64,000 nucleotides of DNA from Gloeobacter kilaueensis JS1 (GTDB lineage: Bacteria > Cyanobacteriota > Cyanobacteriia > Gloeobacterales > Gloeobacteraceae): NCBI RefSeq assembly GCF_000484535.1, contig NC_022600.1:4208234-4272233 (forward strand), given 5' to 3'. Positions 53,860 to 55,796 of this stretch are shown piece after piece. A program made the position numbers and the translations under genes. Below the pieces are notes generated by a model. It did not search any database. It had not been told where the DNA came from and saw only the letters and a program-made list of their open reading frames with translations. Position 1 is the stretch's first letter. Every line of letters begins with the position of its first letter.

Positions 53860-53944
53860 AATTTTCTCGTACCTGAAGCACGAGAAAATTAAGTTATGCT
53901 CGATTTCGGAGCTGAAGTTCTCATCTTCTCGTACCTCAGGCACG
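53860..53944. promoter_or_regulatory. Palindrome and direct repeat before the HipA-like gene
   Basis: AATTTTCTCGT (53860-53870) and ACGAGAAAATT (53880-53890) are perfect 11-bp inverted arms 9 nt apart. The block TTCTCGTACCTxAxGCACG occurs at 53864-53882 and again, with two changes, at 53926-53944, 10 nt before the start codon. Such paired sites are typical operators of autoregulated toxin-antitoxin loci. Confidence 0.7.
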
Positions 53945-53954
53945 CAATGATTAA

Positions 53955-55796
53955 GTGGCCCTGTACCTGATCGGCCTCAATCTGGACAGCCCCACGGCCC
54001 ATTACAGGGCTGAGCGCGGCTACCTTGTGCAACTGCTCCGTGGAATCTACGTCGATGCTACGGATGACGTGGATGCAGTCGTTCTGCAACACGCCGTCCG
54101 GATTGCAAAGTATCTCTACCCCAACACCTATCTATCGGCAGCGAGTGCCATTCTGCTTGGTCCTACCGCTGACGGTCGTCTTTTCCTGTCGGGCAGGCGC
54201 AAGCAGCGCACGCGCATCAGGACACTGGAGATTATCCAGAATCAGGCACCAGCCTACCCCTCCGTGGCACCCACGCTTGTGAAAGATTCGCTGGGAGAGA
54301 TAAGCGTCGATGTATCGGCAATTCGTCAAAGTTTGTTGGAAGCATTTCGACGCCGCAGCGAACAGTCAGCCTCCATCGATCCAGCAATGAAGCAGGCGCT
54401 TGTCGAGCGGCTCGTCAGCGAATATGGCAGTCCGTCTAAAGCAGCAGATGCCGTTTGGGCTCTGGCCCGTGAGAACCAGTGGTACAGGGAAGGCGAGGAA
54501 GCGGAGCAATGGCTGCTGCGCCAGCCACCGATCGTCGTCAGCAATGCCGAGACAGGCATCACCTTTCATATCACCTGGCACGGTGTGCCCCTCGGGCGGT
54601 TGCGCAACGACGGCTTCGAGTGGCGCTGGCTGCTGGAGAAAGTGGATCTCATCTCTCCGGTCCGAGATACTGTGCCAGGACAACTGCCGCCGTTTATCAG
54701 TTCGCTTCTGCCGGAGGGCTGGACTGAGGAGGTGCTGCAGACCGACGACGAGCGGGAAGTTCTGCTCGGTGGTCGCCGGTACCTGTCCAACATTGCGATT
54801 GTCGATGATCTGGCAAAGCTTGCCAGCCTGCCTGTCGATGTGCTCGATGGCAGGCTCGCTCGCTGGATGCAGGAAGGACGATTTGTTGGTGCCTACGCGG
54901 GTCCAGGCAGAGGACACATTGCCAAAGGATTCGAGTGGGCAGTGGCTGAACTGTATCGGGATAGAGACACCCCACGCCTTTCAGGTGTACAGATCAAGGC
55001 TCCGATGTACCTGAATGCCTTGGGACAATTACTCGATGCGCGAGGGCGGCCATTCACGCACATCTTGAAGCCTGCGGGTGCAGCAGGATTCGAGGCCACT
55101 CCGATTGTCGAGTGGACAGCGCTCGAACTGGCGAAGCGTATGGAGTTTGTTGTGCCGGCACACGCCCTGGTGGAGATGCCGGAGCAGCTACCACCGGCAC
55201 TGGTGGTGGAGCGCTTTGACATTCGGTGCGGACTGGAAGACAACCAGCAGTTATATTGCCAGGAGGACTTCTGTTCGCTGCTGAACATCTCCAGTGCCAA
55301 GAAGTATGGTTCGACCATCGAGCAGGTGGCAAAAACCCTGCGCTCCGTCTCGACCGAGCCGGAAGCAGATCTGCTCCTGCTCTGGCGCAGAGCCCTGTTT
55401 GCCTGGCTGATTGCCGATGGAGACATGCATCTAAAGAACCTTGCAGTACTAAGAATCGCTGTACCTGGCGAGCGGTCGTTTCTGTCTGTGCGTCTGGCCC
55501 CGGTATACGATACCCTCACTACCCGAGTCTTCCCAGGGATGGCTCAGGACCGTATGGCTTTGAAACTCAACGGCAAGAACGACAGATTGCAGGCCAGCGA
55601 TTTTCTCACCCTGGCAAGAACCATCGGGATCAAAGTGTCAACTGCCGAGCAGGCGCTCGCACAGATGACGAGCAAACTGGCCAGTGCAGTTCGGGACATC
55701 TGCCTTCCTGCCCTGGCCTACTACGGCCCCCAGGGATTGGAGAAATTTACCCAACTTCAGCAGATCGTTGAAACTCGCTGCAAAAAAATGGCCTGA
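53955..55796 (+). CDS. HipA-family kinase fused to an AbiEi-like N-terminal domain
   Basis: 613 residues from GTG 53955. Residues about 1-190 (YLVQLLRGIYVDATDDVDAV, YLSAASAILLGPTADGRLFL) resemble AbiEi-type antitoxin/regulators. Residues about 200-610 are a HipA Ser/Thr kinase: LLPEGWTEEVL, LSGVQIKAP, THILKPA, VVERFD, catalytic Asp490 in IADGDMHLKNLAVL and metal-site Asp519 in APVYDT. In HipA systems the kinase phosphorylates a tRNA synthetase and is held by HipB. Here no hipB gene is next to it, and the fused domain may serve as built-in antitoxin or DNA-binding part (inference). Upstream repeats suggest self-control. A 312-nt gap separates it from the Cmr operon. Confidence 0.85.
   Translation: MALYLIGLNLDSPTAHYRAERGYLVQLLRGIYVDATDDVDAVVLQHAVRIAKYLYPNTYLSAASAILLGPTADGRLFLSGRRKQRTRIRTLEIIQNQAPAYPSVAPTLVKDSLGEISVDVSAIRQSLLEAFRRRSEQSASIDPAMKQALVERLVSEYGSPSKAADAVWALARENQWYREGEEAEQWLLRQPPIVVSNAETGITFHITWHGVPLGRLRNDGFEWRWLLEKVDLISPVRDTVPGQLPPFISSLLPEGWTEEVLQTDDEREVLLGGRRYLSNIAIVDDLAKLASLPVDVLDGRLARWMQEGRFVGAYAGPGRGHIAKGFEWAVAELYRDRDTPRLSGVQIKAPMYLNALGQLLDARGRPFTHILKPAGAAGFEATPIVEWTALELAKRMEFVVPAHALVEMPEQLPPALVVERFDIRCGLEDNQQLYCQEDFCSLLNISSAKKYGSTIEQVAKTLRSVSTEPEADLLLLWRRALFAWLIADGDMHLKNLAVLRIAVPGERSFLSVRLAPVYDTLTTRVFPGMAQDRMALKLNGKNDRLQASDFLTLARTIGIKVSTAEQALAQMTSKLASAVRDICLPALAYYGPQGLEKFTQLQQIVETRCKKMA

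Follow-up and report, generated by a model that had tools for sequence, protein, structure and literature searches.

The 64,000-nucleotide stretch of Gloeobacter kilaueensis JS1 analysed here (contig NC_022600.1, positions 4,208,234 to 4,272,233; hereafter the window) carries, between argD and the cas10 gene of a clustered regularly interspaced short palindromic repeats (CRISPR) operon, a gene whose single product joins an AbiEi-like domain, a HipS-like domain and a Hip-type kinase core, and which is preceded by two palindromes (Table 1). An initial annotation had described this gene as a HipA kinase fused to an AbiEi-like regulator, with no hipB adjacent, and had proposed a one-gene system in which the fused domain is both antitoxin and repressor. 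The analysis set out below adds two things that the annotation did not contain: the HipS-like domain in the middle as a unit of its own, and the fact that the palindromes are conserved.

The reading frame begins with GTG and, because an in-frame stop codon (TAA, 53952-53954) stands directly 5' of it, the N-terminus is fixed and a longer one is excluded. The order of the three domains is the same in 21 of 21 aligned members of the family – drawn from several alphaproteobacterial orders, metagenome-assembled genomes and one cyanobacterium – and the ratio of nonsynonymous to synonymous substitution rates (dN/dS), at 0.03-0.18 in every domain across four pairs of relatives, indicates purifying selection on all three. 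The reported lack of an adjacent hipB was confirmed, with no hipB-like (helix-turn-helix) frame visible among the open reading frames flanking the gene; nor does an AbiEii nucleotidyltransferase adjoin it, the neighbours being argD and cas10. It is the only gene with a HipA_C domain in the G. kilaueensis genome. Public records label members of the family just 'HipA domain-containing protein' or 'HipA family toxin'.

Table 1. Coordinates of the fusion gene, its domains and motifs, the upstream palindromes and free-standing relatives of the N-terminal domain (window positions unless a locus is named).
Feature	Position	Strand	Basis or remark
Fusion gene, GTG start, 613-residue AbiEi-like/HipS-like/Hip-kinase protein	53955..55796	+	Open reading frame; full-length relatives 53-62% identical
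AbiEi-like domain, residues 1-190, winged helix short by ~20-30 residues	53955..54524	+	AbiEi profiles; dN/dS 0.03-0.14 in relatives
HipS-like / HipA N-subdomain-1-like domain, residues ~200-335	54552..54959	+	Three top PDB matches are HipS, E 0.012-0.016
E254-G255-W256, counterpart of the HipS Glu63/Trp65 kinase-blocking wedge	54714..54722	+	Alignment to 7ab3_B
Kinase core, residues 340-612	54972..55790	+	Pfam HipA_C; Legionella HipT; HipA
Gly-rich loop TPRLSGVQIKAP	54969..55004	+	Motif in alignment; T339-PRLSGVQIKAP
Catalytic motif D490-x-H-x-K-N495 (D490-M-H-L-K-N495)	55422..55439	+	Motif in alignment
Mg-binding D519 (AP-Y-D519)	55509..55511	+	Motif in alignment
Palindrome IR1 AATTTTCTCGTACCTGAAGCACGAGAAAATT, putative operator	53860..53890	.	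12/14 arm positions paired; equalled in 0.3% of dinucleotide-shuffled sequences
Palindrome IR2 CATCTTCTCGTACCTCAGGCACGCAATGATT, second, imperfect putative operator copy	53922..53952	.	Ends 2 bp before start codon; 77% identical direct repeat (D4) of IR1
Free-standing AbiEi-like relatives	L026 3977-4630; L027 3977-4597; L029 3977-4597		Plasmids

The kinase core and the two domains before it

The C-terminal part does keep all HipA kinase motifs, as first annotated. Pfam HipA_C spans residues 342-578 (E 5e-41), and a search of the PDB with the family profile returns Legionella HipT as the best match (1.5e-24) and E. coli HipA as the next (7.6e-16). The Gly-rich, catalytic and Mg-binding motifs that characterise Hip kinases are kept in the 21 members and, on these motifs, the fusion protein is a member of the Hip kinases, with kinase activity and toxicity as predicted properties. 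In the Gly-rich loop, where HipT has Ser57 and Ser59 (numbering of PMC10627512), an ungapped comparison places R341 at the position of HipA Ser150 and HipT Ser57, and S343 at that of HipT Ser59; R341-L342-S343 is maintained in relatives, and of the two HipT serines the second alone is present.

The N-terminal ~190 residues are an addition to HipA. Their likeness to AbiEi, proposed from the outset, has held up as a weak but consistent similarity that points to a distant relationship: the PADLOC models for AbiEi give E 0.0042 for the window protein and 0.0009-0.02 across several members, and several AbiEi models agree on one register, weakly, in single-sequence searches. In a profile–profile comparison, residues 18-174 match AbiEi collinearly with a score of 34, compared with 14 +/- 3 (maximum 26) for 100 column shuffles and 21.5 on reversal. 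The AbiEi profile was built from eight proteins including the G. kilaueensis copy, a clear AbiEi-family protein being encoded elsewhere in this genome. All members lack the first ~20-30 residues of AbiEi, which make up helix 1 and a portion of helix 2 in its winged helix.

Free-standing relatives of this domain, 206-217 amino acids long and annotated as hypothetical, occur on Xanthomonas, Pseudomonas and E. coli plasmids, and show the same shortening of the winged helix. At another locus (L035, 529-2007), an AbiEi-like N-terminus is fused to a Fic/DOC enzyme, so that a second enzyme class seemingly carries the same control module.

The subdomain with which HipA itself begins forms a separate, second segment (residues ~200-335), which excludes the reading that the N-terminal part is nothing but the normal HipA N-subdomain. 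When a 15-member profile of this middle domain was searched against 177,635 PDB sequences, the top three matches were all HipS – from E. coli O127 (two constructs, E 0.012) and H. influenzae (HI_0666, 0.016) – and the next match reached only E 0.57. Couple_hipA matches weakly in one relative. In the HipS alignment, P-E254-G-W256 falls on P-E63-G-W65, the numbers being confirmed by counting along the aligned chain, and E254 and W256 are invariant (P-E-G-W in 21 of 21 members). The domain is thus of the HipS type, with counterparts of both Glu63 and Trp65, as in HipBST systems. Trp65 of HipS wedges into the pocket of the Gly-rich loop of HipT and so blocks the kinase (PMC10627512). None of seven ordinary HipA proteins used as controls – that of E. 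coli, two cyanobacterial ones and four from fusion-bearing genomes – has the wedge Trp, the position being taken by Pro, Ala, Arg, Val or Glu.

The invariance of E254 and W256, together with the HipS alignment, means that the antitoxin is likely the middle domain and not the AbiEi-like part. The alternative division of labour, in which the AbiEi-like domain is antitoxin as well as repressor and the middle domain is an ordinary HipA N-subdomain, may draw on the Fic fusion, which suggests a general control module; it is nonetheless rather unlikely, as AbiEi neutralises a nucleotidyltransferase and not a kinase, and as the residues that block a Hip kinase sit in the middle domain and are invariant.

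Palindromes ahead of the gene

The two palindromes, IR1 and IR2, are ~31 bp each with centres 62 bp apart. IR2, with 9 of 14 positions paired, is not significant alone, and has better-preserved counterparts in most relatives. These relatives show the same two-palindrome arrangement with letters changed in both arms: the proximal palindrome is found in all intact members, with 0-10 bp between its end and the start codon, and the distal one is clear in most, being weak or missed by the scan in several loci. Where both copies are clear, their centres lie 55 or 60-64 bp apart. The core of the palindromes approximates CGTAyyTGArrTACG or CGCAyyTGArATGCG. The two spacing groups (55 and 60-64 bp) and the two inner types (GTA..TAC and GCA..TGC) roughly track protein subgroups among loci L002-L034, with L021 as an exception; in L032-L034 the inner arms have diverged and the outer arms are retained.

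Between the palindromes, 22 of 23 non-cyanobacterial loci have a TTG, taken as the -35, whose position hardly varies (c-41 to c-37, counted from the proximal centre). The -10 box would consequently lie within the proximal palindrome's left arm, and a protein bound there would block RNA polymerase. A reading of IR2 as an RNA hairpin is disfavoured, since an arm that holds the -10 box, as in the relatives, would be only partly transcribed; a DNA operator is therefore the likelier interpretation. The motif has no other occurrence in the 4.72-Mb genome, and is absent at cas10 too, which makes it a putative private operator; a global-regulator reading was rejected, as the operator occurs solely at the promoter of the fusion gene. 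Repression of their own operons through inverted repeats is known for AbiEi proteins (PMC7319586).

Distribution and genomic setting

The protein belongs to an undescribed family of 599-617 amino acids, present on alphaproteobacterial plasmids and chromosomes and, in one copy, in Gloeobacter; papers mentioning both HipA and AbiEi were searched and no description of the fusion was found, with partial coverage of subscription journals. Full-length relatives occur in seven genome contigs (53-62% identity over the best segments), and 74 plasmid records, mostly from Alphaproteobacteria, hold a match to 80% or more of the query length. The fusion is rare in genome samples – 5 of 385 alphaproteobacterial genomes and 3 of 398 genomes of the phylum sample, each count including the centre genome – and no relatives were found in phage or viral-contig collections. 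At the 12 annotated plasmid loci it is a single gene among changing, unrelated neighbours, as it also is in the genome contigs as far as these were checked. A close relative exists in one of 59 related cyanobacterial genomes (74% identity) and is decayed. Horizontal spread of the family is likely, because it is patchy and largely alphaproteobacterial or plasmid-borne, with only this one close, decayed relative among cyanobacteria.

A Shewanella xiamenensis plasmid encodes a 733-residue HipA-domain protein (L028, 3995-6196) with a similar N-terminus (FFVGVNITKRQ...GELLRLGRGIYID). It lacks the wedge Trp (LMPEIV), and may represent a second, more deeply split branch of these fusions.

The decayed cyanobacterial relative, the nearest of all (L010, 1260-2178; genome G004, of the same family as G. 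kilaueensis), has lost residues ~47-391 and its frame is broken; upstream of it, one good palindrome persists and the second is not recognisable. It does not lie at the argD site, and the fusion gene is absent from three genomes of the same genus. One might suppose, given this deleted pseudogene and these absences, the imperfect IR2 and the failure to find a clear promoter in G. kilaueensis, that the gene in the window is itself a decaying acquired copy without present function; the frame is nevertheless complete, all motifs are intact and IR1 is well preserved, and we regard this as very unlikely.

The type III-B operon starts ~0.3 kb downstream of the fusion gene on the same strand. PADLOC identifies Cas10b, Cmr3, Cmr4, Cmr5, Cmr6 and Csx1 in it, and a repeat array, cas2, cas1 and a CARF/HEPN-like gene follow. 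Both loci lie within a lineage-specific stretch of ~18.7 kb between argD and mnmA (53820 to ~72532, spanning the window and L079), which also carries a Uma2-type and an HNH nuclease; in two sister genomes the argD–mnmA distance is ~2.3 kb, as against ~18.7 kb in G. kilaueensis. The defence island first suggested is therefore real locally, in the form of this one stretch, and does not extend further, as no type III locus lies beside any other relative examined: the hipA fusion and the CRISPR locus share a variable site, and their pairing is not conserved. For the same reason, the idea that the kinase is an ancillary toxin of the type III-B system – which its position just ahead of cas10, in the same orientation and the same stretch, might suggest – was rejected, its chances being slight indeed, as the gene also has its own palindromic promoter region, with an operator that cas10 lacks. 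Other defence or mobile genes stand near some relatives, among them cas9 (L014), HSDR_N (L002), a DndB-like gene (L006) and RES-Xre plus Fic (L016).

Relation to known systems and a proposed mechanism

The fusion is not a member of HipBST, hipBA, HipH or AbiE, because its gene organisation, its score relative to the model cut-off and its lack of partner genes set it apart from them. It resembles HipBST (E. coli O127, L. pneumophila, H. influenzae) in the E-G-W wedge of its HipS-like domain and in its HipT-like kinase core, but HipBST consists of three separate genes – hipB, hipS and hipT – whereas the fusion is one gene in all loci, and has an AbiEi-like domain in place of the HipB helix-turn-helix; moreover, the HipT Ser57 position is an Arg. 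HipA of hipBA has the same order of N-subdomain 1 followed by kinase core, yet works with a separate HipB and has neither the wedge Trp (LLPDSP in E. coli) nor an AbiEi-like part. The type IV antitoxins AbiEi and Rv2827c are distantly similar to residues 1-190, and have inverted repeats in their own promoters (PMC7319586); AbiEi, however, is a separate protein beside the AbiEii nucleotidyltransferase, with a full three-helix winged helix and 23-bp repeats.

Two other Hip kinases are likewise monocistronic. HipL (Hip clade XI) also carries a HipS-like domain within its chain (PMC8262856), but in the order kinase, HipS-like, HIRAN and without an AbiEi-like domain. HipH/YjjJ (E. coli K-12, Hip clade X) has an N-terminal extension of the DNA-binding type, earlier proposed as a possible cis antitoxin; at 443 amino acids, with a helix-turn-helix extension of ~100 residues, it lines up with HipT but has no HipS-like part in that alignment (PMC8262856), and no operators are described for it in the available literature, unlike the paired palindromes of the fusion family. 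HipH, with this architecture, phosphorylates RpmE and CsrA (PMC8262856, PMC9948734), and the fusion could by analogy be a regulatory kinase with physiological targets, self-tuned through its DNA-binding domain, rather than a toxin–antitoxin unit. Its patchy and often plasmid-borne distribution, its HipS-like domain, its operator at one genomic site only and its score of 16.3 bits with the YjjJ equivalog model NF007297 (cut-off 401; relatives similar) all speak against this, and make it decidedly unlikely.

The interpretation that we favour, with a little better than even confidence, is that the gene packs the functions of HipBST into a single chain: the AbiEi-like domain would be the autorepressor, and the HipS-like domain the built-in antitoxin. 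The kinase core would be kept off by its own HipS-like domain, W256 wedging into the pocket of the Gly-rich loop as HipS Trp65 does in HipT, and the AbiEi-like N-terminus would replace HipB, binding both promoter palindromes and repressing its own gene; once freed by some trigger, the kinase would phosphorylate a host protein and growth would stop. Of the one-gene system first proposed, the single gene and built-in repressor fit the changing neighbours and conserved palindromes, and the antitoxin is better assigned to the HipS-like domain. The chances are about equal, in our judgement, that the proteins form a new family of single-gene toxin–antitoxin units, with repressor, kinase inhibitor and toxin kinase as one polypeptide, type IV autoregulation of the AbiEi type and a Trp wedge acting in cis. 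A single-gene arrangement had already been foreseen for HipL and HipH (PMC8262856). The available literature does not mention this AbiEi-like module, the pairing of the operators or a Trp wedge acting in cis.

Several observations weigh against this interpretation. The profile scores behind the AbiEi homology are weak, only chance matches, and no AbiEi structure, came back when the N-terminal profile was searched against the PDB, and DNA binding is not assured because the winged helix is some 20-30 residues short of that of AbiEi. The similarity to HipS is low in absolute terms, and was reached by the 15-member profile only, phmmer with the window's own middle domain giving no meaningful match in the PDB. 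As active HipA kinases likewise carry the N-subdomain in cis, the presence of a HipS-like domain is no proof of inhibition. AlphaFold models of the complete chain and of residues 1-196, built on 7-row alignments, were unusable, with predicted local distance difference test values (pLDDT) of 45 and 48. In G. kilaueensis itself, IR2 is imperfect and no -35 of the alphaproteobacterial type is visible upstream of the gene.

If the interpretation is true, toxin and antitoxin are covalently joined, and the rule by which an unstable antitoxin is degraded and the toxin freed would not apply as such; release of the kinase would need a conformational change, departure from the DNA, or cleavage. The system would offer a simple test of how Hip kinases switch on. 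Searches for toxin–antitoxin gene pairs would overlook proteins of this kind. The family would connect AbiEi control, of type IV, with the type II Hip kinases, and provide a compact natural counterpart to HipBST in which all parts are fixed 1:1.
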